Positions 3,459 to 62,578 of a DNA stretch of 64,000 bases are shown here, in pieces. The stretch spans positions 84,127-148,126 of the forward strand of contig VXQZ01000037.1 of assembly GCA_009838735.1 (NCBI GenBank), in the 5' to 3' direction. Source of the stretch: Chloroflexota bacterium. Lineage in GTDB: Bacteria > Chloroflexota > Dehalococcoidia > Bin125. The first letter of the stretch is position 1, and each line of letters opens with the position of its first letter. The notes beneath the pieces are model-generated. The model did not search any database and was not told the origin of the DNA. It saw nothing but the letters and a program-made list of their open reading frames with translations. Both the position numbers and the translations under genes were made by a program.

Positions 3459-3815
3459 GGGGACGAAAGGGTTCGACAGCGGTTGACTTCGAGCTGCTGC
3501 GTGTCGAGCTGGCGTTGCTCGCTAAACCACGCCACCACTCCCTAATTGGCGAAACCAGGGAACTCGCCCTCGCCGCCTAACCGCGGTGACGTCGCCTCTC
3601 AACCGCTGCCGAGTCGGAGAGAGCGCGGCGACGACTAACTCGGATGCCCGTCACGGGAAGTTGGGACCGCGGCGGAAAGACATTCCCACTTACCTGTTCG
3701 TAACGGTCGGCCGACGCGCCGGCGGACAGGGACAACACAAGCAACGGCTACGCACGTAGAAGCAGCTCGCGGAGACCGTCTGGACGGGGAGTTCGATTCT
3801 CCCCCGTCTCCACCA
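3459..3815 (+). ncRNA. ssrA: Transfer-messenger RNA (tmRNA), one-piece
   Basis: The 5' end GGGGACG pairs with CGTCTCC immediately before the encoded ACCA at the 3' end, forming the tRNA-like acceptor stem. A T-arm (GGGGAGTTCGATTCTCCCC) lies at 3786-3804. The internal reading frame GGC GAA ACC ... GCC TAA (3548-3580) encodes a tag ending GETRELALAA, whose hydrophobic Ala-rich end is the usual protease signal. Whether the resume codon is this GGC or a little upstream cannot be fixed by eye. About 357 nt is a normal length for a one-piece tmRNA. It acts with SmpB, encoded just upstream, to rescue stalled ribosomes and tag truncated proteins. Confidence 0.95.
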
Positions 3816-9381: not shown

Positions 9382-11277
9382 TTACTTGCGGCCGAACTGC
9401 CGGAGGACGTCGTCGGACGAAATCTCGACCAGCGTTGGCCGGCCGTGTGGACACGAATGCGGGTTGTCGCAGCGTTCGAGATCGCGCAACAGAGCGGTCA
9501 TCGCCGTCGGATCCAGTACCTGTCCGCGCCGCACCGAGCCATGACAGGCGGCCGAGGCCGCCGCCCGGTCGAAGCGCTCCGGTTCGCGGCCGGCCGGGTC
9601 CAGGTCGGCCAGCACGGCCCGAACCAGCGCGTCGGCCCAGCGGGCTGCCCTGCCGGCCGCCAGCGTGGCGGGCAAGGCGCGCACGCGCAGCGTCCGTTCG
9701 CCAAACAGATCGGCCTCGAAGCCCAGCCTGAGCAACTCTGCTGCCGCCGCCGACCAGTGCGCCGACTCCTCAGCGTCGAGCGGCAGCAGGATCGGTTCCA
9801 GCAGCGGTTGACTGGCGTCCCGGCGCGGTCCGGCCGCGTCAGCCAGCAGGCGCTCGTACATGACCCGCTCGTGCGCGCCATGCTGGTCGACCAGGACCAG
9901 GCCGCGTGGACCTTCGGCAATGATGAAGGTGCGGTGCAGCTGTCCGACCATGCGCAGCGGCGGCAACGCCGGAGACGCCGCCGTTGCCGCGAACGCCGGC
10001 GCCAGGGGTGGCTCGGCGACCGCCTGCGTCCGCCAACTCCGGCCGGGCAGCGCCGTACGCGGCTGCGCGCCCGGTTGCTCGAATCCCGCGGGCGGGGTGG
10101 ATGAGCGTTCGCGGTCAGGTGCGGTTCGATTGTCGACCGCGGACTCAGCGGCGACCGCGCCGTTCCCTAATCGCGGGCCCGACGGCATCCGCAGGGGGAT
10201 CGCCGAACGCCGGCTGGCCAGCGCCTCGCGCAGCGTGCGCTGCAACAGCGAGAAGGCGGCGCCGGGATCGCGCAGCTTGACCTCGGTCTTGGCAGGGTGA
10301 ATGTTGACGTCCACCGCGTCCGGCGGCAGCCGCAGCCGAGCCACGACCAGGGGGAACTCGCCCGCCCCGAGCCAGTCGCGATAGGCCTCCTGCACCGCGT
10401 ACGAGAGCCGCCGATCGTGCACCGGTCGCCCGTTGACGAACAGCCGGATCCGCTCCCGGCTGCGCCGCGCATCCTGCGGCGCGCCGGCGATTCCGTCCAG
10501 CGCCAGCTCGGATCGCTCAGACCGGGCGTCGATCCAGATCCCGCGTTCGGCCGCATCCGGGCTAAAGACCGCGGCCGCAGCCTCGCGCAGCGCCGCCTCC
10601 CGCCCCGGTCCCGGGCCCGCGTCGTGGGCCAGCGGCGTGCGAGTCTCCATCCGCACCCGCAGCGAGCGATCGGGCTGGGCCAATAGCGCATCCGAACTGA
10701 CCCGCAGGAGCGCCGCGCGCTCGGCCCGCGCCCCGGCCAGGAAGGCCCGGCGGGCGGGCTGACCGGCGAACAGATCGAATACCTCCACCGAGGTCCCCAC
10801 GGCCCGCGCCGCCGGCCGCGGCGCCGCCGCCGCGCCAGCGGCGAACTCGATCAGACTGGCGGCATCCTCGGCCGCGCTGCGCGTCGTCAACCGCAGCCGG
10901 CCGGCCGCCGCGGCGATCGCGGGCAGCGCCTCGCCGCGGAATCCGTAGCTGTCCAGCCGGCCGAGGTCGTCCACCGTGGCCAGTTTGGAGGTCGCATGCC
11001 GGCTGAAGGCCAACGGCAACTCGGCCGCGCGAATGCCTCGGCCGTCGTCGTGCACGGCGATCCGCTCGCGGCCGGCCGCCTCGATCTCGACCGATATCCG
11101 CCCGGCGCCTGCGTCGAGCGCGTTCTCCAGCAGTTCCTTGAGCACGGCAGCCGGCCGCTCGATCACCTCGCCCGCCGCGATCTGCGCCGCCACCAGTTCG
11201 GGCAGCTGACGGATCGGACGCCGCGCGTCGGTGTTCGACCCAGCGGACGCTGCGAGCGGTGCTTGGGAGCGACTCAT
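9382..11277 (-). CDS. mutL: DNA mismatch repair protein MutL
   Basis: MutL couples mismatch recognition by MutS to strand incision. The N-terminal GHKL ATPase is plain: IAAGEVIERPAAVLKELLEN (about residues 33-52), DDGRGI, then SRHATSKL and DSYGFRGEALPAI. The C-terminal part carries endonuclease-type motifs: DQHGAHERVMYE (metal-binding DQHAxxE.. type), CPHGRP and a terminal FGR, so it should be a nicking MutL rather than an E. coli-type one; the usual ACR motif appears as ACH. At 631 residues it is of normal size. Its start overlaps the mutS stop by 4 nt, implying translational coupling. Confidence 0.97.
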   Translation of the reverse strand: MSRSQAPLAASAGSNTDARRPIRQLPELVAAQIAAGEVIERPAAVLKELLENALDAGAGRISVEIEAAGRERIAVHDDGRGIRAAELPLAFSRHATSKLATVDDLGRLDSYGFRGEALPAIAAAAGRLRLTTRSAAEDAASLIEFAAGAAAAPRPAARAVGTSVEVFDLFAGQPARRAFLAGARAERAALLRVSSDALLAQPDRSLRVRMETRTPLAHDAGPGPGREAALREAAAAVFSPDAAERGIWIDARSERSELALDGIAGAPQDARRSRERIRLFVNGRPVHDRRLSYAVQEAYRDWLGAGEFPLVVARLRLPPDAVDVNIHPAKTEVKLRDPGAAFSLLQRTLREALASRRSAIPLRMPSGPRLGNGAVAAESAVDNRTAPDRERSSTPPAGFEQPGAQPRTALPGRSWRTQAVAEPPLAPAFAATAASPALPPLRMVGQLHRTFIIAEGPRGLVLVDQHGAHERVMYERLLADAAGPRRDASQPLLEPILLPLDAEESAHWSAAAAELLRLGFEADLFGERTLRVRALPATLAAGRAARWADALVRAVLADLDPAGREPERFDRAAASAACHGSVRRGQVLDPTAMTALLRDLERCDNPHSCPHGRPTLVEISSDDVLRQFGRK

Positions 11278-14165
11278 GATCCTGCCTCCGCCCTGCGGGC
11301 CGGGCGCTCGGGCTGCAGACCGCGCAGCTCGGCCCGGGCCTGCTCGCGCAGCGCGTAGAGCGCCGAGATCGCCTCCAGGGGCGTGATCCCGTCGACATCG
11401 ACATCGGCCAGATCGTGCAGCAGCGGATGCGCGGCTGGTGGAGCGGGCGGCATCAGCATCAGCTGCGGCGCTCGCTCCCCAGCCGCGCGCGCCGCGGCAT
11501 CGCCCGTCGTCGCGCCCGCCGCGGCATTACCTGTCGCAGCGCGCGCCGCGGCATCGCCCGTCGCCCCGCGCTGCGGCCGTTCCAGTTGCTCGAGCAACTC
11601 CCGCGCCCGTGCGACCACCGCGGCCGGAAGCCCGGCCTGAGCCGCAACATGCACGCCGTACGAGCGGTCGGCGGCGCCGGGCGCGATCCGGTAGAGGAAC
11701 TCGATCCGGCCCGCCTCGGTCTCCTCGACCTGGACGGCGGCGTTGGCCACCCGCGGCAGCCGGCCGGCGAGCGCGGTGAGCTCATGGAAGTGGGTCGCGA
11801 AGAGCGTCCGCGGCCCGCGCTCGGAGCGCGGCGGAGCAGATGCTGTGCGCGCGTCCGGGCAAGCCGCCTGCGGACCGCCGCCCAGTGCCTCGGCCACCGC
11901 CTGCGCGATCGCCAACCCGTCCCACGTGGATGTCCCGCGGCCGATCTCGTCCAGCAGCACCAGCGATCGATCCGTGGCCCCGTGCAGCAGGTGCGCCGTC
12001 TCCAGCATCTCAACCATGAACGTCGAGCGGCCCCGGGCCAGCTCGTCATGCGCGCCGACTCGGGCGAAAATCCGGTCGACCAGCCCGACCCGCGCCCGCT
12101 CGGCCGGCACGAAGGATCCGGCCTGGGCGAGAATCACGATCAAAGCGGCCTGCCGCAGATAGGTCGATTTGCCGGCCATGTTCGGCCCCGTGACCAGCAG
12201 CAATTGCGGCGCGTGTTGGCCGTCGTCGGCCAGACGCAGGTCGTTGGGCACGAACCCGCCCTGGGCCGCCGCCGCCTCAACGATCGGGTGACGGCCGGCG
12301 GTGATGTCGAGGACGCCGGAGTGTTCCAGGCTAGGCCGGCTCCAGGCCCGTTCGGCCGCCACCGCGGCCAACGACGCGGCCGCGTCGAGCCGGGCCAGGG
12401 CGCCCGCGGCCCGGCGGACCGTCTCCGCCTGCGCCACGAGGGAGCGGCGCAGGCGCTCAACACAGTCCCGCTCGGCCTGTTCGAGCCGCTCCTCGGCCGC
12501 CTGCAGTTCGGTTTCAATCCGGCGCAACCCGGGCTCGGAGAAGCGTTCGCGATCGCGCAGCGACTGGCGCCGCTCCCACGCCTCCGGCGCCCGCCCGGCG
12601 ACCGATCGGGTCAGCTCGATGTGATAGCCGAAGGTCCGGTGATAGCCGATTCTGAGCGATTCGATGCCCGACTGCTCACGCAGCTCGCGCTCGCGCGCGG
12701 CCATCAGTTCGCGCGCCGCCGCGCTCGCCGCCCGGGCGGAGTCGACCTCGGCGTCGACGCCGGCGCGGACCACGCCGCCGCCAGCTTCCGCGGGGCGCTC
12801 GTCCAGGGACGCGTCAATCCGCTCAGCCGCAGCCGGCGCCGGCGCCAGCTGCCCGGCCAGGTGTTCCAGCGCCGGGCTCGCGCTGCCCGCGGTCGACTCC
12901 TCGATCGTCGCCGCCAGATCCGCCGCGGCGATCAGTCCGCGCGCCAGCCGCGCCAGTTCGGCGGCCGAGGCGACCCCGGATGAGGCGCGGCCGAACAGGC
13001 GCTCGAGGTCGGCGGCGCCACGCAGCTGCGCGGCCAGCGCGCGCCGCAGGGCCGGCCGCCGGACCAGGGCCTCGACCCGGTCCAGCCGTCGTTCGATTCG
13101 CTCCACGCTGAGCAGCGGCGAGGCCACCGCCGCCCGCAGCCAGCGCCGGCCCGGGGCGCTGCCGCAACGGTCGATCACTTCCAGCAGCGTCTGCGCTCCC
13201 GCGTCCGCGGCCGCCGCCGAACCCCCCGTCGAGCCCGGCGCGGTCACGCCCAGCGCGCGCTCGGTCGCCCGGTCCCACTGCAGGTAGGCCTCAGTCTCGA
13301 ACCAGCGCGGCGCCGACAGATGCGGCATGGCGCCCGGCTGCGCTGCCCCCGTCGTCTCGTCGCCCGTCTCATCGCCCAGATCATCAACCGGGGCACCGTT
13401 CGCCGGCAGCGCCCGGCGCAGGTAGCCGATCAGCGCGCCCAGCGCGCCCAGGGCGGCGTCGCCGCGTTCGCCCTCCAGCCCCAGCGCCGCAGCCGGCGCG
13501 CCGTACTGCTCCTCGAGCGCCCGCCTGGCTGTGTCGCCGCGGAACTCCGAATCCGGCCGCCGGGTCAGCGCCAGATCGACCAGATCGATCAGTGGCGCCT
13601 CGCTCGTCTCTCCGATCAGCAACTCGCGCGCGCCTAGCCGCTCGAGCAAATCGGCCGCGCGCCGCCAGAGCGCCGCGTCCTCTTCGAGCTGGCCGTCCAG
13701 TTCGGCCACGTGGCAGGCGCCGGTCGTGATGTCGGCCACGGCGACCCCCAGACGGAGCCGGCGCCGCTCACGGCGCACCACGACCGCGGCGCAGGCCGAG
13801 GCCTGGCCCGCCTCGAGCAGCGCCGGTTCCAGCGCGGTCCCGGGCGACACCACCCGCACGACTCCCCGCTTGACCAGCCCCTTCGCCGCCCGCGGCTGTT
13901 CCAGCTGCTCGCAGATCGCCACCCGGTGCCCTTGCGCGACGAGCCGCGTCAGGTGCTGCTCGACCGAGCGCACCGGCACGCCGGCAAGGGGCGAACGCAG
14001 GCCGCCGCCCATCGGCTTCGAGGTCAGGGCAATGTCCAGCGCCTCGGACACGACCTTCGCGTCCTCGTCAAACGTCTCGTAAAAGTCGCCCAGGCGGAAC
14101 AGCAGGATCGCATCCGGATGACGAGCCTTAAGGTCGAGATATTGCCGCCGAACCGGTGTGACCAT
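11274..14165 (-). CDS. mutS: DNA mismatch repair protein MutS
   Basis: MutS recognises mismatches and small loops and recruits MutL. The N-terminal mismatch-binding domain has the FxE-type wedge (DAILLFRLGDFYETFDEDAK, about residues 18-37). The connector, lever and clamp follow, and the ATPase domain shows TGPNMAGKSTYLRQAALIV (Walker A), DEIGRGTSTWDGLAIA (Walker B) and ATHFHELTAL. At 963 residues it is longer than the usual 850-880, partly because of a 27-residue Ala/Gly repeat near the C-terminus and loops such as QAACPDARTASAPPRSERGP. It is followed by mutL with a 4-nt overlap. A TAACAT box lies 6 nt before its ATG. Confidence 0.97.
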   Translation of the reverse strand: MVTPVRRQYLDLKARHPDAILLFRLGDFYETFDEDAKVVSEALDIALTSKPMGGGLRSPLAGVPVRSVEQHLTRLVAQGHRVAICEQLEQPRAAKGLVKRGVVRVVSPGTALEPALLEAGQASACAAVVVRRERRRLRLGVAVADITTGACHVAELDGQLEEDAALWRRAADLLERLGARELLIGETSEAPLIDLVDLALTRRPDSEFRGDTARRALEEQYGAPAAALGLEGERGDAALGALGALIGYLRRALPANGAPVDDLGDETGDETTGAAQPGAMPHLSAPRWFETEAYLQWDRATERALGVTAPGSTGGSAAAADAGAQTLLEVIDRCGSAPGRRWLRAAVASPLLSVERIERRLDRVEALVRRPALRRALAAQLRGAADLERLFGRASSGVASAAELARLARGLIAAADLAATIEESTAGSASPALEHLAGQLAPAPAAAERIDASLDERPAEAGGGVVRAGVDAEVDSARAASAAARELMAARERELREQSGIESLRIGYHRTFGYHIELTRSVAGRAPEAWERRQSLRDRERFSEPGLRRIETELQAAEERLEQAERDCVERLRRSLVAQAETVRRAAGALARLDAAASLAAVAAERAWSRPSLEHSGVLDITAGRHPIVEAAAAQGGFVPNDLRLADDGQHAPQLLLVTGPNMAGKSTYLRQAALIVILAQAGSFVPAERARVGLVDRIFARVGAHDELARGRSTFMVEMLETAHLLHGATDRSLVLLDEIGRGTSTWDGLAIAQAVAEALGGGPQAACPDARTASAPPRSERGPRTLFATHFHELTALAGRLPRVANAAVQVEETEAGRIEFLYRIAPGAADRSYGVHVAAQAGLPAAVVARARELLEQLERPQRGATGDAAARAATGNAAAGATTGDAAARAAGERAPQLMLMPPAPPAAHPLLHDLADVDVDGITPLEAISALYALREQARAELRGLQPERPARRAEAGS
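11485..11565 (-). repeat. 27-bp in-frame tandem repeat, three copies, inside mutS
   Basis: The word CCGCGGCAT recurs at 11492, 11519 and 11546, exactly 27 bp apart. On the coding strand it gives three 9-residue units (ATGDAAARA, ATGNAAAGA, TTGDAAARA) between the ATPase domain and the C-terminal helix of MutS. The unit length preserves frame, so this is a variable-number repeat candidate in a non-conserved linker. Confidence 0.8.
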
Positions 14166-52768: not shown

Positions 52769-54133
52769 CTATGCCGTCTTGAAGCCCGACCCGTACATCA
52801 AGCTTCCATAGTGATTGAACCAGCCTCGCGCTTCGGGGTCATCGAAGGGATACTCGGCTCCGAGTTGCCGGGCGGCTGCCAGACCAGTGACGAAACAGGT
52901 CTCCTGGCTGTTGATCAGGGTGTGCGCGCCGCAGTGCCAGGTGCGTCGGTTGCCCTGAATGAAGCGGAACAGATTGACCAGCAGCAGCACGTGTTTCACG
53001 TCGTGCACGACGTGTTGGAACCATCGCCTGGCGACAATCTTGTCCTGGTCAATGGGCGTGATTGGGTTGTAGGTCACCAGGCACGGCCTGTCGGACTGGT
53101 GTGCCCACGGCTGCTGATTGTGCATGATGTACGTGATCTCATAGTTGTCCGGCCGCGCTCCGTACTGCTCGATGTGGTTGCTTCGCGTGGTCAGCGGCTT
53201 GACCTCGTTGTCGGGCAGCACCGACGCATCGGAGTGCACGATCGCGTGATTGTGCAGCTCACTCTCGTAGCGGATCGACGAGAGGACGTATCGCTCGAGC
53301 CAATTCGGCCGGTCAAGCATCATCAGCGTCTGGTTGGCATTGCAGGCGAAGATCACGTCGTCGAAGGTCTCCTGGATACCGTCCTCGTCTTCAAGGACTA
53401 CGCCAGCCGATCTTCGATAGACCTTCCGCACGGGGCGACCCAGGTAAATCCTGTCCCGGAAGTCGAGCGAGAGATGTTCATAGATCCGGCGGGTGCCCTG
53501 GTCCCAGGTTCGCATCGGCGTCGCCGATTCGATGTCGAAGAACTCGAGATACCGGGAGAAGAGGGCCGCGGGCATATCGAACACATTGGTCGCCATCAGG
53601 AAGTTGACGAACATTGGCTTGAGCACCTTGTAGCGGAAGTCGCCCGAGAACCCACCGGCGTTCAAGACGGTCCCCATGCTGACGTAGTTGAAGGGGTTGA
53701 GCGCGTTGAGCAGCTTCGAACGGGATCTGGTGAGCCATCCGAAGCGGTGCATCAGCGCCAGCAGTCGCTGGAACCGGGCAATCTCTTCGCTCAGTTCCTC
53801 CCGGATCTCCGAGTCGAAGTCATGCGCGTACACCTGACCTCGGTACTTGACGCTGTAGCTGAAACGCGTCTCGAGCAACTCGATCCCGAACTGTTGCATC
53901 AGCAGCACGATGTGGTGGTAGACCGAGGGAATGCAGGCTGTCACGGAGATGTCGAACGGAATCGATCTGCCGTCCGCCTGCGGCATATCGGCCGTCACAG
54001 CATTGCCGCCCAGCTGCTCATTGGCCTCAAAGAGCCGCACGTCAAAACGGTCCGGGTCCCGGTTGAGCGCCCAGGCGGCGCCCAGGCCGGAGATCCCGCC
54101 GCCGATCACGGCCACTCGGCGAGGAGATGTCAC
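52769..54133 (-). CDS. FAD-dependent amine-oxidase-like oxidoreductase (COG2907 type)
   Basis: This 454-residue flavoprotein opens with the dinucleotide motif RVAVIGGGISGLGAAWALNR (GxGxxG at about residues 11-16) and FEANEQLGGNA, the FAD ribose and NAD-loop segment of the amine oxidase/desaturase superfamily. FDDVIFACNANQTLMML and the C-terminal INSQETCFVTGLAAARQLG complete the FAD fold. The closest type known to me is the predicted NAD/FAD oxidoreductase found with cyclopropane fatty acid genes, so lipid oxidation or desaturation is plausible. It starts at ATG overlapping the upstream Rieske oxygenase stop (4 nt), an operon with tight coupling. Confidence 0.85.
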   Translation of the reverse strand: MTSPRRVAVIGGGISGLGAAWALNRDPDRFDVRLFEANEQLGGNAVTADMPQADGRSIPFDISVTACIPSVYHHIVLLMQQFGIELLETRFSYSVKYRGQVYAHDFDSEIREELSEEIARFQRLLALMHRFGWLTRSRSKLLNALNPFNYVSMGTVLNAGGFSGDFRYKVLKPMFVNFLMATNVFDMPAALFSRYLEFFDIESATPMRTWDQGTRRIYEHLSLDFRDRIYLGRPVRKVYRRSAGVVLEDEDGIQETFDDVIFACNANQTLMMLDRPNWLERYVLSSIRYESELHNHAIVHSDASVLPDNEVKPLTTRSNHIEQYGARPDNYEITYIMHNQQPWAHQSDRPCLVTYNPITPIDQDKIVARRWFQHVVHDVKHVLLLVNLFRFIQGNRRTWHCGAHTLINSQETCFVTGLAAARQLGAEYPFDDPEARGWFNHYGSLMYGSGFKTA

Positions 54134-55215
54134 TGTCGGGCCAGCTCGGCGCTGCGAGCCGGTTCACATGTTGCCGGCGGCGCCTCATCCTGCAGCGGAT
54201 AAAACTGCGCGCAGTATGCGCGGTAAGTCATGATTTCGCCGTCCGAGCGGCAAAGTCGCGGCCGGCGGACATACCGCTTCCGGCTCCAGATCGTCACATC
54301 CTGCTGTACGTCATTGCGCTGTAGGGCGATCGCGAGCTTGTTGACCAATGGAGCACGCCACCTAACTGGGAGCAAAGCGAAACCGAGGGCGTTTCGGTTT
54401 GGGCTGCGGATTTCCTTGACCTGATTGACGATCGAGAGGTTGATCATCTCGCCGTCGATCGGCGTCGCCAAAATCCAGAGCCGCATGTCCGTGCCGACGT
54501 TGTGCTCGCGAAACTCGACAAAGGAGTAGCCGAGTCCATGGATTCGGGCGCACGCGCTGACGCTCACGTCAACATTGAAGAGATGAGCGATCCTCCGCCG
54601 GCTCTTGAAGTCGAAGCGGCTTTCCAGATACGGGCCATCGACCCGGACCGGATAGTCGCCGTTTACCTGGTCGTAGCCGTGGACGTACTGAAGATGGGCG
54701 AGGTCGACCGAGTTCTCTGTGGTTTCCTGAGGATGGCCGGGGAATCGCAGCGTTCTGATTTCAATGTTGCTCCAGCCAGTTTGATCCGGTTCCTTCTCCG
54801 GCAACTGCCATTGCGGATCTCGCCCGCCGATCCCCCACCAGGCGAAGACCATGCCGCAAATCTCTCTGGTCGCGAACGTCTGTAGCCTGGCCGAACGAGG
54901 CGCCGGCGCATACGGCGTGGCAACGCACTGGCCGTCCGCGTTGAACTCGAACCCGTGGAACGGGCAGACCAACCGGCCGTCGCAGACACGGCCTCCGGCG
55001 TCAGGCCCGAGGTACGAGCCCAGATGCGGACAGTAGGCCTCGGACACGCAGATTCGTCCCTCGTCGTCGTGCCAGACGACGATCTCTTCGCCCATCCACG
55101 TCATCTGGGTGATGTCCGATTTCTTCAACTGCCGACTGGTACCCACGAAGTACCAGCCTTCGGGAAACGGAGCCGGCGGACCATGCTCGGCCGCGTTCGG
55201 CTGAGGAGCGGACAT
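54130..55215 (-). CDS. Rieske non-heme iron oxygenase, sterol-oxidising (KshA/DAF-36-like) type
   Basis: This 361-residue oxygenase has the Rieske [2Fe-2S] ligands in YCPHLGSYLG and CPFHGFEF (about residues 62-93, C-x-H ... C-x2-H) and the mononuclear iron site in ENSVDLAHLQYVHGYDQVNG (His-x4-His and an Asp). The IxxLG segment and PFHGFEF sequence context recall oxygenases such as KshA or the DAF-36/Neverland sterol 7-desaturases. A sterol-, hopanoid- or other lipid-ring substrate is therefore a reasonable inference. ATG 55215 follows GAGGGAAG. It heads a two-gene operon with the FAD oxidoreductase and is divergent from the P450 fusion gene. A separate ferredoxin and reductase must come from elsewhere. 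Confidence 0.88.
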   Translation of the reverse strand: MSAPQPNAAEHGPPAPFPEGWYFVGTSRQLKKSDITQMTWMGEEIVVWHDDEGRICVSEAYCPHLGSYLGPDAGGRVCDGRLVCPFHGFEFNADGQCVATPYAPAPRSARLQTFATREICGMVFAWWGIGGRDPQWQLPEKEPDQTGWSNIEIRTLRFPGHPQETTENSVDLAHLQYVHGYDQVNGDYPVRVDGPYLESRFDFKSRRRIAHLFNVDVSVSACARIHGLGYSFVEFREHNVGTDMRLWILATPIDGEMINLSIVNQVKEIRSPNRNALGFALLPVRWRAPLVNKLAIALQRNDVQQDVTIWSRKRYVRRPRLCRSDGEIMTYRAYCAQFYPLQDEAPPATCEPARSAELARQ

Positions 55216-55300
55216 CTCAGACTTCCCTCGTCTCACGGCCCGGGGCGACCGCCATCTCCGCCGTGCAGGCCCTGTGTAAGAAACGTTAACGGCTCACCAA

Positions 55301-55328
55301 TTGACTGTGGTGGCGTTAGCCTTATGTA
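55301..55328 (+). promoter_or_regulatory. Candidate promoter of the GPP34-P450 gene
   Basis: TTGACT (55301-55306), a 16-nt spacer and TATGTA (55323-55328) point towards the P450 fusion gene 120 nt downstream. A small palindrome CGTTAACG (55284-55291) just upstream of the -35 is a possible operator in this divergent region shared with the Rieske gene. Confidence 0.4.
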
Positions 55329-55450
55329 CGCCGGACGGAAGGCCGATTCAGAACACCCGCCTGTTGTTGCCATATAGTGACGACGATCAGGGAATGCGCG
55401 CCTCAAGACATATTGAGAGCGTGCACCAGGGTGTGTAAAGGGCGCGAACG

Positions 55451-57529
55451 ATGACGCTGAGGACTGCTGACGCACCAGCGCAACAGATGACCTTGCCCCA
55501 GGAACTGGTCTTGATGCTGCTCAATGAGGAGAGCGGCTACTTCCGCCAGGTGCGCGGCTGGAACCTGAACTGCGCCATGGTTGGCGCCGGGCTGGCCGAA
55601 CTCTCCCTGATGGGCAACATCGACACCGATATGAACTCGCTGCAGCTGCTTGACTCGACGCCAACGGGCCATGCGGCTCTTGACCCGATTCTCGAGGCAA
55701 TCGCTGAAGATCCGGCACAACACGACGCGCAGTACTGGGTAGAGGTCCTCGCTCCTCGGGCCGACACCTTCATCGACGTTGCCCTCGATCGCCTCGCTGA
55801 AATGGACATTCTCCAGCATCACGAGGGGGAGTTCTGGACACTGAATCACTCGGCGTGGCAATCCGACCAGTTTGGCGACACCGGGGCAATCACCGCTGCC
55901 GGATTCGTCAGATCGCGCATCGCACGCGTCATATTCGAGGATGAGATTCCCGACCCACGGGACGCGATCCTGATATCGCTCCTCAACACCTGCGATGTGC
56001 TGCGCTTCATCTTCGAACTCGAACCACAGGCTGACGAACGTGTCCAGTTCGTCTCCAACCTGGATCTGCTGGGCCGCTCAATCTCCGATGCCGTTTCCCT
56101 GAATCTGACGAGCCCGCTGGTTCGTCAATCGGCATTGACGAGGACGATTCCGAAAGTCAACCTGCTCAAGCTGCTGTTCAATCCACATGTCCGAACAGGC
56201 AATATTCCTGCGCTGTTCGCCAGTCTGGCCGAGCAGTATGGTCCAGTGTTTCAGTTGGCCCCGCCCTTCCAGCAGCCGACTATCTTCCTGACCGGGCTCG
56301 AGGCTAACCGTTGGGCCCAGCGGGAAGGCAGGCGATTCCTGACGTCGACGAAGTACCTCAACGAGCTTGAGGAGGAGTACGGCGCCCACGGGATCATCCC
56401 GTCACTGGACAGTTCCGATCACTTCCGGATGCGAAAGGCGATGCAGCCCGGCTTGTCTCGGGCGCGACTCGAGAGCCAACTGGGCGAACTCTATCGTCTC
56501 ATGCGGACGCACCTCGCCGAATGGAACGTCGGTGACGCGATGCCCGCGAGGTCCATGTCGCGGCTGATGACTAACGCTCAGATCTCCCCCATTCTTGCCA
56601 GCGTTGATTCACAGGACATCATCGAAGACTTGATCGCCTATAAGGAGCGCGCGCTCAACACGCGCGTTGCCAAGGTGATGCCCAAGTTCTTGCTGCGCAC
56701 GCCGGCCATCAGGCAACGAGCCAAGAGCATTGAAGCGATGCTTGAGCGCGTTCAGCGCGCTCATACTCCAGCCCTGCGGGTCGATACCCCGCGCGATATC
56801 GTCGACGATTTGCTCAGTCTGCACGCAAATGATCCGCAGCTGTTGCCTGAGTCGAGTCTCAAGTTCGCCCTTTCCGCCCCGCTGCTGGCCAGCATGTACC
56901 TGGGCGACACCATCGGGTTTGCGCTCTACGCGCTGGCGTCGCAGCCGGAGCTGTACCAGAGAATCCAGGCCGAGGCCGACGCGATCTTTGCTGACGGCGA
57001 TCCGGACCCTGAGGTATTTCAGGGTCCCGAAATCGATGTCACTCGCCGCTTTGTCCTTGAGTGTCTGCGAATGTACCCGGTCGTTCCCGGTTCACTGCGC
57101 AACGTGATGAACAGCTGCGTCGTCGAAAACTATGAGCTGCCGTTGAGCGCTCGTGTGCTCGTCGTGCAGACCGCCGCGCACTACATGAACGATGTGTTCC
57201 CCGAGCCGCACAAATTCGATATTGATCGATACTTGCCTGGCCGTGAGGAGCATCGCTCGATTGGATACGCACCTTTCGGACTGGGCACGCACACATGCCT
57301 GGGCAACCGTTGGGTGGAACTGCAAATGGCAGTCGACCTGATGATGATCGCGCATTATTTCGACTTGGAAGTCCAGCCGGCCAATGCCAAGCTGCGGATC
57401 AGCCCGTTCCCGTCCTTGTCGATCAGCAACAAGGTGAAGTTCCACATCTCCCGCAAACGCCGCGAGATTCCCCCACCGGGCGAGTCGAATGGCTCAGCAG
57501 CCGCTATGGGTTGCCCCGTTCTTCACTGA
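55451..57529 (+). CDS. GPP34-domain/cytochrome P450 fusion protein
   Basis: Residues about 12-225 match the GPP34 (GOLPH3/Vps74-like) fold: LPQELVLMLLNEESGYF, GAGLAELSLMGNI, DSTPTGHAALDPILEAI, YWVEVLAP and PDPRDAILISLLNTCDVLRF. In eukaryotes this fold binds phosphoinositide-bearing membranes. Residues about 230-675 form a cytochrome P450: the I-helix LGDTIGFALYALASQP (Asp486-Thr487), ExxR as ECLR (Glu537-Arg540), an FDIDRYLPGREE-type segment and heme loop FGLGTHTCLGNRW with Cys616. Bacterial P450s are about 400-450 residues; the 692-residue chain carries a full extra domain. The reading frame is continuous and the start ATG 55451 has AAAGGG upstream. It is divergent from the Rieske gene and convergent with the RND gene. 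Confidence 0.88.
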   Translation: MTLRTADAPAQQMTLPQELVLMLLNEESGYFRQVRGWNLNCAMVGAGLAELSLMGNIDTDMNSLQLLDSTPTGHAALDPILEAIAEDPAQHDAQYWVEVLAPRADTFIDVALDRLAEMDILQHHEGEFWTLNHSAWQSDQFGDTGAITAAGFVRSRIARVIFEDEIPDPRDAILISLLNTCDVLRFIFELEPQADERVQFVSNLDLLGRSISDAVSLNLTSPLVRQSALTRTIPKVNLLKLLFNPHVRTGNIPALFASLAEQYGPVFQLAPPFQQPTIFLTGLEANRWAQREGRRFLTSTKYLNELEEEYGAHGIIPSLDSSDHFRMRKAMQPGLSRARLESQLGELYRLMRTHLAEWNVGDAMPARSMSRLMTNAQISPILASVDSQDIIEDLIAYKERALNTRVAKVMPKFLLRTPAIRQRAKSIEAMLERVQRAHTPALRVDTPRDIVDDLLSLHANDPQLLPESSLKFALSAPLLASMYLGDTIGFALYALASQPELYQRIQAEADAIFADGDPDPEVFQGPEIDVTRRFVLECLRMYPVVPGSLRNVMNSCVVENYELPLSARVLVVQTAAHYMNDVFPEPHKFDIDRYLPGREEHRSIGYAPFGLGTHTCLGNRWVELQMAVDLMMIAHYFDLEVQPANAKLRISPFPSLSISNKVKFHISRKRREIPPPGESNGSAAAMGCPVLH

Positions 57530-57540
57530 CTGTCTGCGGC

Positions 57541-60024
57541 TCAGGACGGGGTCGATTCCTGCTCGTGGCGCTCTTGCGTCTCGTCGATCGCTTCGTCCAG
57601 GTCATCCCACATTCGCTGCATCGCCGAGCGCAACCGCATGTTCTGGAAGGCGCCCCAGACGGTCATCGTTGGCGGTACGACGAGGATTGAGACGATCAAC
57701 GAGTAGGCAATCGTGATCGCTGCGGTGATACCGAACTGCTGCGACGCCAAAAGCGGCGAGGCGATGAGCACTCCAAGACCGAGCGCCGTCGTCAGCGCAG
57801 ACCCAAGGAGCGCCGAGCCGGTCGTGGCCAGGGTGCGAATCGCCGCCTGCTCCGGATCGCGTAGGCGTGTGAATTCTTCCCGATAACGATGGATCAGATG
57901 GATGGTGTAGTCGACGCCGATGCCAATCGAGAGCGCGGTGATGATCGACGTGACCAGCGAGTATGGGATGCCAAGCAGCGCCATCGTACCCAGGACCCAG
58001 ATCAGGACAAAGACGATCGGCACCACTGCGATCACGGCCAACACGGGCTGACGATGGGTCACCCAGAAAAAGATCGCAAGAATGGCAAGCGCCGCAGCAA
58101 TGGTGATGCTGATCGCCTCCGTCTGGCGATCCGTGATCGAATCGGTGATTGTCACCCCGATGATGCCCTCGGATGTCGCGGTGATCGCATCGTCCGTACC
58201 GACCCAGAGCGCTTCCAACTCCGGCTGCACCTGCCTCGCGCCGATCGAATCTCCCGACATGGTTGGGAATTGCACCAGGATCGTATCGAGTCCGTTCGGA
58301 TTGTTGACGAGCGCATGCGAGAGCGCCGGTTCCAGAGTTTCCAGCCGGTTGAGAATCTGCTGCATCAACGCCGGATCAAGCTCCAGGCCGGCAGATGCTT
58401 CGCGGAACGTTGCCGCCAGTTCCGGGTCGTAGTTGTCGGAGGGCTCTCCGCTGTCCGTGATCCAGTCGCGAACGATTAGCTCGTATGACGTCTGAAGTGG
58501 TCCAGCGGCAAACCCCGGCCGGCTGCTGTCGTCCTCAAACACTGCAGCCAGATCGCGCAGATTGAGCAGGGTTCTGGTTTCCGTGGCCTCGGCCTTGATC
58601 AATACGGAGGTCACCTCGGCCGGTCCTCCGATCGCGGCGTCGAGCGTGTCCCAATCTTCGAGCACCGTTCCTCCGCGCGGGAGGATGTCGCGAATGCTGA
58701 ACTCCGACTCAAGATCGGTCGCCGCTACACCGAAGCCAATGGTCACTGCCAGGACCACCAACAGGAAGGGGGCGGGCCTGAGCGCTACGTTGGCGCCCAA
58801 CAGCTCGGCAGCTCGCGCCACGCCCGGGATCGCCTGTGCGATGAGACGTTGCGGAGGCAGCGTGCCCTTGGCTTCCCGCCGGCCGTCGATGATCGCGCGG
58901 CCCGCCGGTACCAGCGTGAGCATCACGAACAAGCTCATGCCGACGCCAAAGGCAGCGACGACGCCAAAGTCGCCCACGATCTCGACCGGGGAGAAGAGGT
59001 TGGCCAATAGGCTGACCATCGTCGTGACCGCGGCAAGCATCAGTGGGATCACCACATGCCGCATTCCCGAACGCACCGCTTCGATCACCGGCACGCCGGT
59101 GGCTCGCTGTTCCCGGTAGTTCGACACGACCTGAATGGCATAGTCGACCGTGAGGCCGATGATGATGATCGGCACGAGCGCCGTGAGGGCGTTCGGTGGA
59201 CCGATCACTCCAAGCGCGCCGGGGCCCAGCCAACCTTCCAGGCCGACCACCCAGATAATCGACAACAGCAGCCCCACCAACGCGAGCACCAGGTCGGACA
59301 GCGTTCGCAGGAACAGCAGAATCAACACGGCAATCAGCAGCAGCGCCACGCCAATCAGCGGCGCCATGCCGTCCTCGGTCGCTTGTTTGTACTCATCCTC
59401 GACGACGATCGGCGACACGCTGCTGACTTGAAGCGGCCCTTCGTCGCTCGTGGCCATCTCGGCGATCCGGCGCTCGGCGTCGGCCACCCGTTCGTCCTGG
59501 GTGTTGCGTAATCGGACGGTCGCGATTGCGACGGCTGTTCCGTCGACGTCCGTCCCCGTGAGCGCGCCCATGACTGGCGCGATTTCCGGAGCCGCGCTGA
59601 CGGCATCGATTTCCGCCTGCGATACCGCATCGAGGTTCTCAGCGCCCAGCGCAGCCTGAATCAAGTGAGCCGGCGAGAAGATCGCATCCGTGGGCGTCAG
59701 CAACATCGCGATATCGGGCTCGGCGGCGATGCCACCAAGCAGCCCACTCATCTGCGACAGCCCCTCGGGCGTCAGCGCTGCTCCTCTGAACACGAGCGTG
59801 ACCAGTCGCACATCACCGGAGGCCTCGAAATGGTCGTTGATCTCTCCGATTGCCTCAACGATCGGGCCATCCTGGGGCAGCAGCGCCAGGTCCGTGCCGT
59901 CTACAATCGGCACCCGCCGATCCGCGCCGGCGGCGAGAATCACTGTGACGATCAGCAACACCCCGATGGTGACCCAGGGGCGGGCTGTGACCAGGCGGCT
60001 CAGTTTGCCGAGAATGTCACTCAT
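57541..60024 (-). CDS. RND/MMPL-family exporter (HpnN-like)
   Basis: This 827-residue inner-membrane protein shows the two-fold RND layout. Helix 1 lies near residues 16-36, a large external loop runs to about residue 205, five helices follow (LIGVALLLIAVLILLFLRTL, VPIIIIGLTVDYAIQVVSNY), then a second half with helix 7 (LLVVLAVTIGFGVAATDLES), a loop (about 430-630) and a last helix block (ITIAAALAILAIFFWVTHR, SIGIGVDYTIHLIHRYREEF). The GxxxDY signatures in both halves carry the proton-relay Asp typical of MMPL and hopanoid (HpnN) transporters. Such proteins move lipids out of the membrane. ATG 60024 is used. The C-terminus ends convergently with the P450 fusion gene. Confidence 0.9.
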   Translation of the reverse strand: MSDILGKLSRLVTARPWVTIGVLLIVTVILAAGADRRVPIVDGTDLALLPQDGPIVEAIGEINDHFEASGDVRLVTLVFRGAALTPEGLSQMSGLLGGIAAEPDIAMLLTPTDAIFSPAHLIQAALGAENLDAVSQAEIDAVSAAPEIAPVMGALTGTDVDGTAVAIATVRLRNTQDERVADAERRIAEMATSDEGPLQVSSVSPIVVEDEYKQATEDGMAPLIGVALLLIAVLILLFLRTLSDLVLALVGLLLSIIWVVGLEGWLGPGALGVIGPPNALTALVPIIIIGLTVDYAIQVVSNYREQRATGVPVIEAVRSGMRHVVIPLMLAAVTTMVSLLANLFSPVEIVGDFGVVAAFGVGMSLFVMLTLVPAGRAIIDGRREAKGTLPPQRLIAQAIPGVARAAELLGANVALRPAPFLLVVLAVTIGFGVAATDLESEFSIRDILPRGGTVLEDWDTLDAAIGGPAEVTSVLIKAEATETRTLLNLRDLAAVFEDDSSRPGFAAGPLQTSYELIVRDWITDSGEPSDNYDPELAATFREASAGLELDPALMQQILNRLETLEPALSHALVNNPNGLDTILVQFPTMSGDSIGARQVQPELEALWVGTDDAITATSEGIIGVTITDSITDRQTEAISITIAAALAILAIFFWVTHRQPVLAVIAVVPIVFVLIWVLGTMALLGIPYSLVTSIITALSIGIGVDYTIHLIHRYREEFTRLRDPEQAAIRTLATTGSALLGSALTTALGLGVLIASPLLASQQFGITAAITIAYSLIVSILVVPPTMTVWGAFQNMRLRSAMQRMWDDLDEAIDETQERHEQESTPS

Positions 60025-60076
60025 GCTGAGCAACAGGATAAGAGGGTCGCATCGAGTCGCAACCAGTTCCTGTGGA

Positions 60077-61702
60077 TCAGGACAGGCTGAAGCCCTGGTA
60101 GCCGTTCTCGGCGACTTCCGCTAGCCGCTCTCGGTATCGCGGTGCGCCGCCGGGGTAGATCATGTAGCGCTGATGATCCTGCTTGCCGTGGCCGTCAACG
60201 TTTGAGTTGTAGCCGGTAAACCAGCTCTTGATCTTGCTCATCAGCTGGAATTGGTACATCTCCTGCACGTGTTGCCGCCATTCCTGCTCGGCGCCGTCCT
60301 GAGCCTCGACTCGTCGATATCCGTGGTCGCGCATGTAGCTGAGCAAGTCGGAGATCCAGTCCACCGAGGTCTCGATGCCGCGTGGATAGTTGGTTGAGAC
60401 GGATCCGCCCTGTGGGCCGCTGAGCATCAACAGATTGGGGAATCCGGACGTCTGCATGCCGAGCAGCGTGTCCGGACTCTGTGCCCATTTGTCCCGTAGC
60501 GGTAGCCCGCCCGATCCGGTGAAGTTGATTCGATCGAACGCGCCGGTGATCGCGTCGAATCCCGTTGCATAGATGATCAGGTCAAACTCGAACTCCCGGT
60601 ACGACGTTCGGATGCCCGTTGGCGTGATGCGCTCGATCGGCGTCTCATTGATGTCGATCAGACGCACGTTGTCTCGGTTGTAGGCCTCGTAGTACTTCGT
60701 TTCGAGCGGCACCCGACGAGTGCCAAACCCATGGTCCTTGGGGATCAGCCTCTCCGCCGTGATTGGGTCGTGTACTCGTGCCCGGATTTTGTCCGCGATG
60801 AACTCCGAGTAGCCGGCGTTGGCCTCAGGGTCGATCCCGACATCGATGAAGTTGCTCATCCACTTGCTGAAGCCGGGAGTCTCGTAGAGCTGCTGCCAGA
60901 GCGCCAGCCGCTCTTCCTCGGGCACGTCGCGGTACTTGCGCTGGTCTGGGGCATGGATGAAGCCGCCGGGCGTCCGCCGGCAGAGTTCGAAGATCTCGTC
61001 GTAGGTCGCGTGAATTTCTGACTGCGTTGCATCGTCGATGCGGCCGTTGTGCAGCGGCGCGCACCAGTTGGGGCGGCGCTGGAAGACAGTCAGTTCGCCC
61101 ACCTTGTCGGCGATCTCCGCGATCACCTGGACGCCGGTTGCGCCGGTGCCAATCACCGCGACCCGCTTACCGGCCAGATCAACTTGCTCATGCGGCCAGT
61201 AGTAGGTGTGCCAGGCGTCTCCCTCGAAGCTGTCGACGCCTTCGATCCGCGGCAAGGTCGCCGCCGAGAGCATGCCGATCGCAGTCAACAGGAAGCGGCA
61301 GGTCAGCTCCCGTCCGTCCTCCAGGCTGACCGTCCAGAGATCAGTCTCATCGTCAAACGACGCGCCGTTGACCCTGCAGCCAAACTGCATGTGCTTGCGC
61401 AGGTCGAACTTGTCGACGACGTGATTGAGATAGCGCAACGTCTCCGGTTGTCCGGCGAAGTGCTCGCTCCAGTCCCATTCATCGAGCAGTTCCTGTGAGA
61501 ACGAGTAACCGTAGGTGTAGCTCTCCGAGTCGAAACGCGCGCCGGGATAGCGATTCCAGTACCAGGTGCCGCCGGGGCCGTCGGCAGTCTCGAGGACCGT
61601 CGCGTCGATGCCCAGCTCCTGCAGCTTGTACATCTGATAGATGCCCGCGACTCCGGCGCCAATGATGATCGCTTCGTGCTGGGGTTGAACCTGCTCGGTC
61701 AT
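60077..61702 (-). CDS. Baeyer-Villiger monooxygenase
   Basis: This 541-residue flavin enzyme inserts oxygen next to a ketone to form an ester or lactone. Both Rossmann motifs are present, GAGVAG (residues 15-20, FAD) and GTGATG (185-190, NADPH), and the family fingerprint FEGDAWHTYYWP (159-170; consensus FxGxxxHxxxWP) lies between them. The catalytic Arg lies in PKDHGFGTRR (about residues 321-330), followed by KYYEAYNRDNVRLID and an ATGF segment. It is close to class I cyclic-ketone and steroid/terpenoid monooxygenases. Start ATG 61702 follows GAAGGAG. The alpha/beta hydrolase is divergent, and the RND exporter lies beyond its 3' end on the same strand. Confidence 0.95.
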   Translation of the reverse strand: MTEQVQPQHEAIIIGAGVAGIYQMYKLQELGIDATVLETADGPGGTWYWNRYPGARFDSESYTYGYSFSQELLDEWDWSEHFAGQPETLRYLNHVVDKFDLRKHMQFGCRVNGASFDDETDLWTVSLEDGRELTCRFLLTAIGMLSAATLPRIEGVDSFEGDAWHTYYWPHEQVDLAGKRVAVIGTGATGVQVIAEIADKVGELTVFQRRPNWCAPLHNGRIDDATQSEIHATYDEIFELCRRTPGGFIHAPDQRKYRDVPEEERLALWQQLYETPGFSKWMSNFIDVGIDPEANAGYSEFIADKIRARVHDPITAERLIPKDHGFGTRRVPLETKYYEAYNRDNVRLIDINETPIERITPTGIRTSYREFEFDLIIYATGFDAITGAFDRINFTGSGGLPLRDKWAQSPDTLLGMQTSGFPNLLMLSGPQGGSVSTNYPRGIETSVDWISDLLSYMRDHGYRRVEAQDGAEQEWRQHVQEMYQFQLMSKIKSWFTGYNSNVDGHGKQDHQRYMIYPGGAPRYRERLAEVAENGYQGFSLS

Positions 61703-61810
61703 CGCTCGCTCCTTCACTTCGCTATGTCGAGGCTAAACGGAGCCGAATCCGTCGGCAACGGATGGGACTCAGCCACCGGCTATGTTGGCGATCGGAACCG
61801 GCTCGGTTAG

Positions 61811-62578
61811 ATGACAATCGATCTCAACGCCATCCACACCCTGATCGAAGGCGACGGCGAGCGTTCATTCCTCTTGCTGAACGGCGCCGGCCAGAGTCTG
61901 CGCACCTGGGATCATGCGGTTCCGGGGCTGCTCAGCGCCGGCCGCGTGATTCGGTTTGACGTTCCGGGGGTTGGCAAGAGTCCGTCGCCCGGCGCTCCTT
62001 ACTCGTTCGAGGAACTCGGACAGGCTGCAATGGAACTGGCTGGTCGCCATGGCGTCGGAGATCTGGTGGCGATCGGCCATGCTTGGGGCGCTCGGGCGGC
62101 GCAAGTGATCGCGCGTGATTTCGACGTCGCGGGCGTCGTGGTCGGGTCCGGCGGAGGGAAGTTTCCGCCGCTGGCCGAGCCTGAAGACATGCGTTCGCTC
62201 TACGTCCTCGATGTGGACGACTGGAGCCGGCGTTTCGAGCGGGCCTATTGCGCTCTTGACTTCAGCGCTCGCCATCCCGAGCTTGCGGACTGGCTGTTTC
62301 GACTCGTCCGCGAGACTCCCGTCGACCGCAGCGTCGTCACGGGAGCGATGGAGCGGTCGCCGGTCGACTCCTACTGGGGCAAATTCGAGTGCCCCACGCT
62401 GTTGCTCTATGGCGCGGACGATCTCGTTGGCCATTCGCAGCACGCCGAAGACTTGCACCGATTGCTGCCGGACTCCACGCTGGTGTACATCGAGCAGGCG
62501 GGCCACTTCGTCGTCGCCGAGCAAGGCGAGCGTTTCGCCGCGGAAGTGCTTCGTTGGATAGACGAGCGGGGACTATGA
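61811..62578 (+). CDS. Alpha/beta-hydrolase-fold protein lacking the Ser nucleophile
   Basis: This 255-residue protein has the complete fold of the MenH/haloperoxidase-like group: LLLNGAGQSLRTWDHAVP (oxyanion region), RFDVPGVGKSP, the elbow IGHAWGARAAQ, the acid in LLLYGADDLVG (Asp203/204) and the His in QAGHFVVAEQ (His232). At the nucleophile elbow the usual GxSxG Ser is Ala (codon GCT, residue 91), so normal esterase or lactonase chemistry is unlikely unless another residue substitutes. It may be a binding, non-hydrolytic or isomerising member. It lies divergently next to the Baeyer-Villiger monooxygenase, whose ester products a typical partner would hydrolyse. Confidence 0.85.
   Translation: MTIDLNAIHTLIEGDGERSFLLLNGAGQSLRTWDHAVPGLLSAGRVIRFDVPGVGKSPSPGAPYSFEELGQAAMELAGRHGVGDLVAIGHAWGARAAQVIARDFDVAGVVVGSGGGKFPPLAEPEDMRSLYVLDVDDWSRRFERAYCALDFSARHPELADWLFRLVRETPVDRSVVTGAMERSPVDSYWGKFECPTLLLYGADDLVGHSQHAEDLHRLLPDSTLVYIEQAGHFVVAEQGERFAAEVLRWIDERGL

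Follow-up and report, generated by a model that had tools for sequence, protein, structure and literature searches.

De novo sterol gene clusters (CSGs) have been described in Dehalococcoidia and other symbionts of the sponge Ircinia (PMC9531527). In a Melophlus symbiont, the msb cluster includes a bifunctional squalene epoxidase/oxidosqualene cyclase (SQE/OSC), MsbE, and the genes flanking msb are said to show no likeness to sterol genes (PMC7074536). Bacterial sterol methyltransferases (SMTs) of sponge symbionts were found in sterol gene clusters, and several were active in vitro, with products up to 24-isopropyl sterols, in a study that also trimmed fused SMO/OSC proteins (Brown et al. 2023; PMC10070321). 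The stretch analysed here, referred to as the window, comprises 64,000 nucleotides (positions 84,127 to 148,126 of VXQZ01000037.1, contig C39) of a 3.15-Mb Chloroflexota genome, G000; G, C and L denote genomes, contigs and loci throughout. Judging from domain content and gene context, the window very probably carries a cassette with which a Chloroflexota (Dehalococcoidia-type) symbiont tailors and exports sterols. Its core consists of genes for a flavin (FAD) enzyme, a Rieske oxygenase, a fusion of a GPP34 domain with a cytochrome P450, and an RND transporter of the MMPL type.

The original prediction was that six neighbouring genes tailor and transport a cyclic membrane lipid. All six were found to be open frames at the coordinates predicted, with domains of the named enzyme types above the Pfam cut-offs. 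The proposed role in lipid tailoring and transport is very probable and was narrowed to sterol rather than just a cyclic terpenoid, because the cassette is paired with SMTs and linked to a sterol cluster, while squalene-hopene cyclases (SHC) are common in genomes without it.

Comparison with known sterol clusters

The window genome has a sterol cluster on another contig, C36 (L059:5398-13509), where SdmB, SdmA, ERG24, CYP51 and SQE/OSC lie in a row and the CYP51 and SQE/OSC frames overlap. This cluster has the content and order given for the CSG and msb clusters, in similar bacteria and hosts. Its SQE/OSC (1141 aa) contains DCTAE and YVECT motifs; it scored 751 bits against osq_cycl, below the cut-off of 851, but exceeded the threshold set for the broader squalene/oxidosqualene cyclase model. 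The C36 CYP51 matched solved CYP51 at E ~2e-106. The original prediction had noted no cyclase in the window, had suggested that the substrate may come from elsewhere and had proposed a search of the genome; that search located the SQE/OSC on C36 and an SHC-type cyclase on C13. Since the oxidosqualene cyclase, squalene epoxidase, CYP51 and C14-reductase genes are on C36 rather than in the window, the cassette was deduced to be accessory and not itself a CSG. No sterol-gene homologues were detected in the window flanks on C39 (L070-L074) by family searches, on which all negatives about the window genome rest.

The GPP34-P450, KshA-type Rieske, FAD oxidase and RND cassette is not mentioned in the available text of the CSG and msb papers (PMC9531527, PMC7074536). 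The SMTs of Brown et al. are of the same enzyme family as those described below and come from similar hosts (PMC10070321). The de novo cluster, the SQE/OSC fusion (MsbE) and active bacterial SMTs are already known; the cassette is apparently undescribed, as no paper on it or on the GPP34-P450 fusion was found in the open-access literature.

Sterol genes and methyltransferases accompanying the cassette

Relatives identified by protein search were Chloroflexota/Dehalococcoidia metagenome-assembled genomes (MAGs), and further matches were to Gemmatimonadota, Acidimicrobiia and Gammaproteobacteria MAGs. Homologues of the FAD, Rieske, fusion and MMPL genes were grouped across Chloroflexota families, with subsets in the MAGs of the other three groups, mostly from sponges. 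The proposed conservation of the cluster was therefore upheld for these four genes but not for the Baeyer-Villiger and hydrolase genes, which are not core. The bin names of several relatives point to symbionts of Rhopaloeides, Ircinia and Aplysina, the hosts being judged by these names. Bins labelled jk18x come from the Ircinia study (PMC9531527), and the RHO, IRC, COS and APA bin codes match the species list in PMC8163846, a link drawn from names alone. For Palauibacter poriticola (Plut_88886), the host may, by its name, be the coral Porites.

The most telling partner, the SMT, is outside the window. It is the usual fifth member of the cassette, and the window genome has copies on C11 and C41. 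FAD, Rieske, fusion, SMT and MMPL genes occur together at L103 and L104 and, as a five-gene unit in distant Chloroflexota families, at L126, L128, L129, L131, L132, L135 and L139; in these families the SMT and fusion genes meet tail to tail, in most cases no more than ~50 bp apart. The gene order in Gemmatimonadota is AcrB-fusion-SMT-FAD-Rieske, or a subset of it, and in Gammaproteobacteria an AcrB-type pump is near the fusion with the Rieske and SMT genes. Fusion, SMT and Rieske, with or without FAD, are found in both groups. In the window genome the fusion, Rieske, FAD and MMPL genes are adjacent and an SMT of the fusion-linked clade (SMT-B) is present, the combination taken here to define a sterol-linked tailoring cassette.

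Among 61 Chloroflexota genomes, an SMT was found in 16 of the 17 with the fusion and in none of the 44 others (Fisher 8e-14), and a bona fide OSC in 12 of the 17 and again 0 of 44 (Fisher 4e-9), relatedness among the genomes inflating both values. A second, chosen set had an SMT in 19/23 fusion genomes versus 2/13 without a full fusion. Direct linkage to sterol genes was also observed. At L106 (G013) the order is SdmB-SdmA-ERG24-CYP51-SQE/OSC-SMT-SdmB-fusion-MMPL, with cyclase to exporter in one 15-kb run, and at L060/L061 (G001) the MMPL, fusion, Rieske and FAD genes are within ~22 kb of the SdmB-to-OSC set and an SMT. In two Gammaproteobacteria (L065, L066) an FAD homologue (75% identical) lies beside squalene synthase and SQE/OSC genes and comes after them. 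At L125, L128 and L129, in Chloroflexota family f61, the cassette is accompanied by a tandem pair of ERG24-like sterol reductase homologues (30-31%).

In the partner methyltransferases, the sterol-specific C-terminal domain PF08498 scored above its cut-off, and this domain was matched in 0 of 14 control genomes. In the SMT tree, all fusion-adjacent proteins but one (L050) formed a single clade, SMT-B (support 100), which spans four phyla and includes the C11 copy; the OSC-adjacent Chloroflexota SMTs formed another clade. SMT-B differs from other SMTs in having Met in place of the region-I Tyr in 8/8 aligned rows. This Tyr, which we take to be Tyr81 of Erg6, influences product outcome in the yeast enzyme; because of the Met at this position, alkylation by SMT-B may differ from that by other SMTs.

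Seven Gemmatimonadota MAGs and the Acidimicrobiia MAG have the fusion and an SMT and gave no cyclase match, and the only one from a further, eighth MAG of the Gemmatimonadota (G072) was short and weak. Incomplete assembly could account for single cases, but hardly for all. Since the Gemmatimonadota have the cassette and SMT with no cyclase detected, such bacteria probably act on sterols scavenged from elsewhere.

Enzymes and transporter of the cassette

The fusion gene (55451..57529, plus strand) is one frame of 692 codons. It encodes a GPP34 (GOLPH3-like) domain at residues 15-215 (55493..56095; Pfam 2e-29, 103.5 bits against a cut-off of 29.1) and a P450 domain at residues 246-657 (56186..57421; 2.1e-38) with the ExxR motif (ECLR) and the Cys-ligand loop (FGLGTHTCLG). 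That this predicted fusion is not an artefact was supported by the two-domain protein being read from ~40 loci in several phyla. In an alignment of 19 rows over four phyla, every row had ExxR, and the Cys ligand was missing from a single one. This exceptional copy (L037:10001-12076) reads THTRLG, with Arg at the position of the heme-ligand Cys, and another copy from that MAG (L040) retains the Cys. The AlphaFold model (pLDDT 71) gave generic P450 matches in a fold search, with CYP51 at the top, and these were not taken as evidence of CYP51 function. The best CYP51 match of the window P450 was 6.8e-18, compared with ~2e-106 for the CYP51 on C36. P450s without GPP34 but close to the P450 domain of the fusion were observed in 6-Mb Chloroflexota (G401, G410, G444, G466, G474, G638), genomes that have no SMT. 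A plasmid search returned only P450-domain matches below 30% identity.

The GPP34 domain matched GOLPH3 in the Protein Data Bank (PDB) weakly. The pocket of GOLPH3 for phosphatidylinositol 4-phosphate (PI4P) presumably consists of Trp81, Arg90, Arg171 and Arg174. In the weak alignment the pocket Trp was aligned and invariant, the Arg90 position was not conserved and is not Arg in the window, and Arg171 and Arg174 were not reliably aligned. The window protein shares with GOLPH3/Vps74 the GPP34 domain and apparently the lipid-pocket Trp, but differs in its junction to a P450 and at the Arg90 position. Bacteria lack a Golgi, and PI4P is not known from them.

The Rieske oxygenase (368 aa; 54130..55236, minus strand) is separated from the divergent fusion gene by 214 bp (55237..55450), a putative shared promoter region. 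It contains the Rieske (5.3e-20) and KshA_C (1.2e-25) domains of the KshA/DAF-36 family, with the motifs CxH/CxxH and DxxHxxxxH and a late Asp, and all metal ligands were invariant in 16 homologues. It shares this domain and ligand pattern with KshA, DAF-36 and Neverland but is distant from KshA, the best PDB match covering the N-terminal half at E 1.9e-24. Known bacterial cases of Rieske-based sterol modification and RND-type sterol transport are SdmA/SdmB and BstA of Methylococcus; however, SdmA has a VanA_C domain where the window protein has KshA_C. No ERG3/ERG25-family desaturase was found in the six cassette-bearing Chloroflexota searched, which leaves room for a Rieske desaturase. By analogy with DAF-36/Neverland, a Rieske sterol desaturase (PMC7609953), the window enzyme could fill this gap. 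A second KshA_C-type Rieske gene adjoins the gene of the other SMT of the window genome, SMT-A (L102:7402-9683, on C41), and ~13 kb from this pair is a Baeyer-Villiger paralogue (46%).

The FAD-dependent oxidoreductase (454 aa; 52769..54133, minus strand) belongs to the flavin amine oxidase superfamily (Pfam Amino_oxidase, 1e-14), and the start of its gene overlaps the end of the Rieske gene by 4 bp. Its nearest solved relative is the amine oxidase LkcE (E 5.6e-32), followed far more weakly by 2b9w (E 1.5e-7), which we take to be the fatty-acid isomerase PAI. The AlphaFold model (pLDDT 44) was too low in confidence for fold comparison. The protein is 75-92% identical to homologues in Chloroflexota, Gemmatimonadota and Gammaproteobacteria. 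As its identity to the Gemmatimonadota proteins (78-80%) equals that to some Chloroflexota, these sequences suggest that the FAD gene moved between phyla by lateral transfer. The trees hold the phyla mostly apart, and the transfers would therefore not be recent.

The transporter (830 aa; 57541..60033, minus strand) is convergent with the fusion gene, 11 bp away. It was assigned to the MMPL/HAE3 type of RND proteins from its Pfam MMPL match (5.3e-44, 150.9 bits) and two GxxxDY motifs, at 293 and 704; TIGR00921 gave 204 bits, under that model's cut-off. The predicted likeness to HpnN holds loosely in that HpnN-type RND proteins are the closest solved relatives (3.4e-14 to 3.9e-14), but the score of 99 bits is far from the NCBIfam cut-off of 751.85. 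The score for BstA was 62 bits against a cut-off of 1400. The exporter is of the MMPL type in Chloroflexota and Acidimicrobiia and of the AcrB type in Gemmatimonadota and Gammaproteobacteria, the latter having OEP and HlyD genes next to it, and this split would fit export across different envelopes.

The two remaining genes encode a PtlE-like type I Baeyer-Villiger monooxygenase (546 aa; 60077..61717, minus strand) and an alpha/beta hydrolase-fold protein (61811..62578, plus strand). The former matched Pfam FMO-like/Pyr_redox_3 and NCBIfam PtlE (229 bits against a cut-off of 1100), and its fingerprint FEGDAWHTYYWP at residue 164 is of the form FxGxxxHxxxWP, between two Rossmann motifs. The hydrolase (Abhydrolase_6, 7.8e-17) lacks a nucleophile as predicted, its elbow being GHAWG with Ala in the nucleophile place, and the same elbow was found in three relatives (L034, L038, L109). 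Linkage of the Baeyer-Villiger gene to the fusion was seen in four relatives besides the window, while its orthologue and the fusion are on separate contigs in G001, G004, G005, G006 and G010. The Baeyer-Villiger, hydrolase, M16 and EEP genes were rejected as cassette members, as their adjacency to it is restricted to three to five close relatives and the Baeyer-Villiger orthologue is elsewhere in others. A luciferase-like monooxygenase gene is located between the MMPL and Baeyer-Villiger genes of two relatives, at L033:14655-15944 and L038:14693-15985 (Pfam on the L033 copy only). Elsewhere in the window, a tmRNA gene was noted at 3459-3815 (tag GETRELALAA), and at 10001-14000 the G+C content rises to 75%, against ~65% around it.

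Alternative explanations and significance

P450 and Baeyer-Villiger enzymes occur in steroid catabolism, and KshA, which the window Rieske protein resembles, is the 9-alpha-hydroxylase of cholesterol catabolism. The genes could on these grounds serve degradation, with KshA-like ring opening and Baeyer-Villiger oxidation of host cholesterol as a carbon source. Judged from the accompanying genes, this is quite improbable, since SMT, sterol reductases and the cyclase cluster are anabolic, an exporter is included, and the Baeyer-Villiger gene is outside the conserved unit. For the last reason, the original argument from a Rieske, P450 and Baeyer-Villiger trio also does not carry the case for sterol or terpenoid oxidation. 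It is highly improbable that hopanoids from the squalene-hopene cyclase on C13 are what the cassette oxidises and exports, although that enzyme is present and the transporter has HpnN-type proteins as its closest solved relatives. SHC-type cyclases do not track the fusion in the 61 Chloroflexota and are found in many relatives without it (e.g. G017, G019, G035, G052), no convincing SQHop_cyclase match was obtained in fusion-bearing Gemmatimonadota, and the constant partner is a sterol methyltransferase. COG2907-type proteins elsewhere are involved with methyl-branched or furan fatty acids, but a similar role here for the FAD enzyme and a cyclopropane-synthase-like methyltransferase is barely credible, for while the FAD protein weakly resembles 2b9w and the methyltransferases also match the CMAS model, the latter have PF08498, seen in no control genome, and sterol reductases or the sterol cluster are at the locus in several relatives.

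The cassette most likely oxidises and exports sterols in sponge symbionts, judging from the sequences and their context. The substrate would be a sterol from the cell's own cluster, or from the host or neighbours in cassette-bearing species that lack a cyclase. SMT-B would alkylate the side chain, and the Rieske and FAD enzymes would then oxidise the ring system, most likely by desaturation or a double-bond shift. The P450, held at the membrane surface by the GPP34 domain, would also oxidise the ring system, and the RND transporter would move the product out of the inner membrane. We infer the order of reactions, the positions attacked, the GPP34 domain as a lipid anchor and the direction of transport.

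Several observations weigh against this assignment. The Thr of the oxygen-activation motif in the P450 I-helix is not conserved (DT, DG, DQ, DE, SA), which makes ordinary hydroxylation uncertain, and the chemistry may be other than plain hydroxylation. Full-length divergent fusion paralogues (~30% identity; L130, L134, L138) lack sterol neighbours and cassette partners, and may form an older lineage within the fusion family. The SMT is on another contig than the window locus, and no SMT was detected in the fusion genomes G443, G481 and G008. Finally, the genomes are MAGs, and the Fisher values overstate significance because related ones are not independent.

Whether unusual sponge sterols are of host or bacterial origin bears on 24-isopropyl and 26-methyl steranes as early-animal fossils (PMC10070321). 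With five concrete genes whose linkage spans four phyla, the cassette bears on whether sponges or their bacteria make unusual marine sterols, and sterol-modifying genes with an SMT but no detected cyclase point to sterol exchange inside the holobiont. It is doubtful, though conceivable, that the cassette and its unusual SMT-B supply the enzymes still missing for rare demosponge sterols with added alkyl groups or altered rings (e.g. 26-methyl or other non-C24 alkylation). If so, these rare sterols, some of which serve as biomarkers of animals in Precambrian rocks, would receive their final form in symbionts and be exported by them; some symbionts would build the sterol nucleus themselves while others remodel scavenged sterol.

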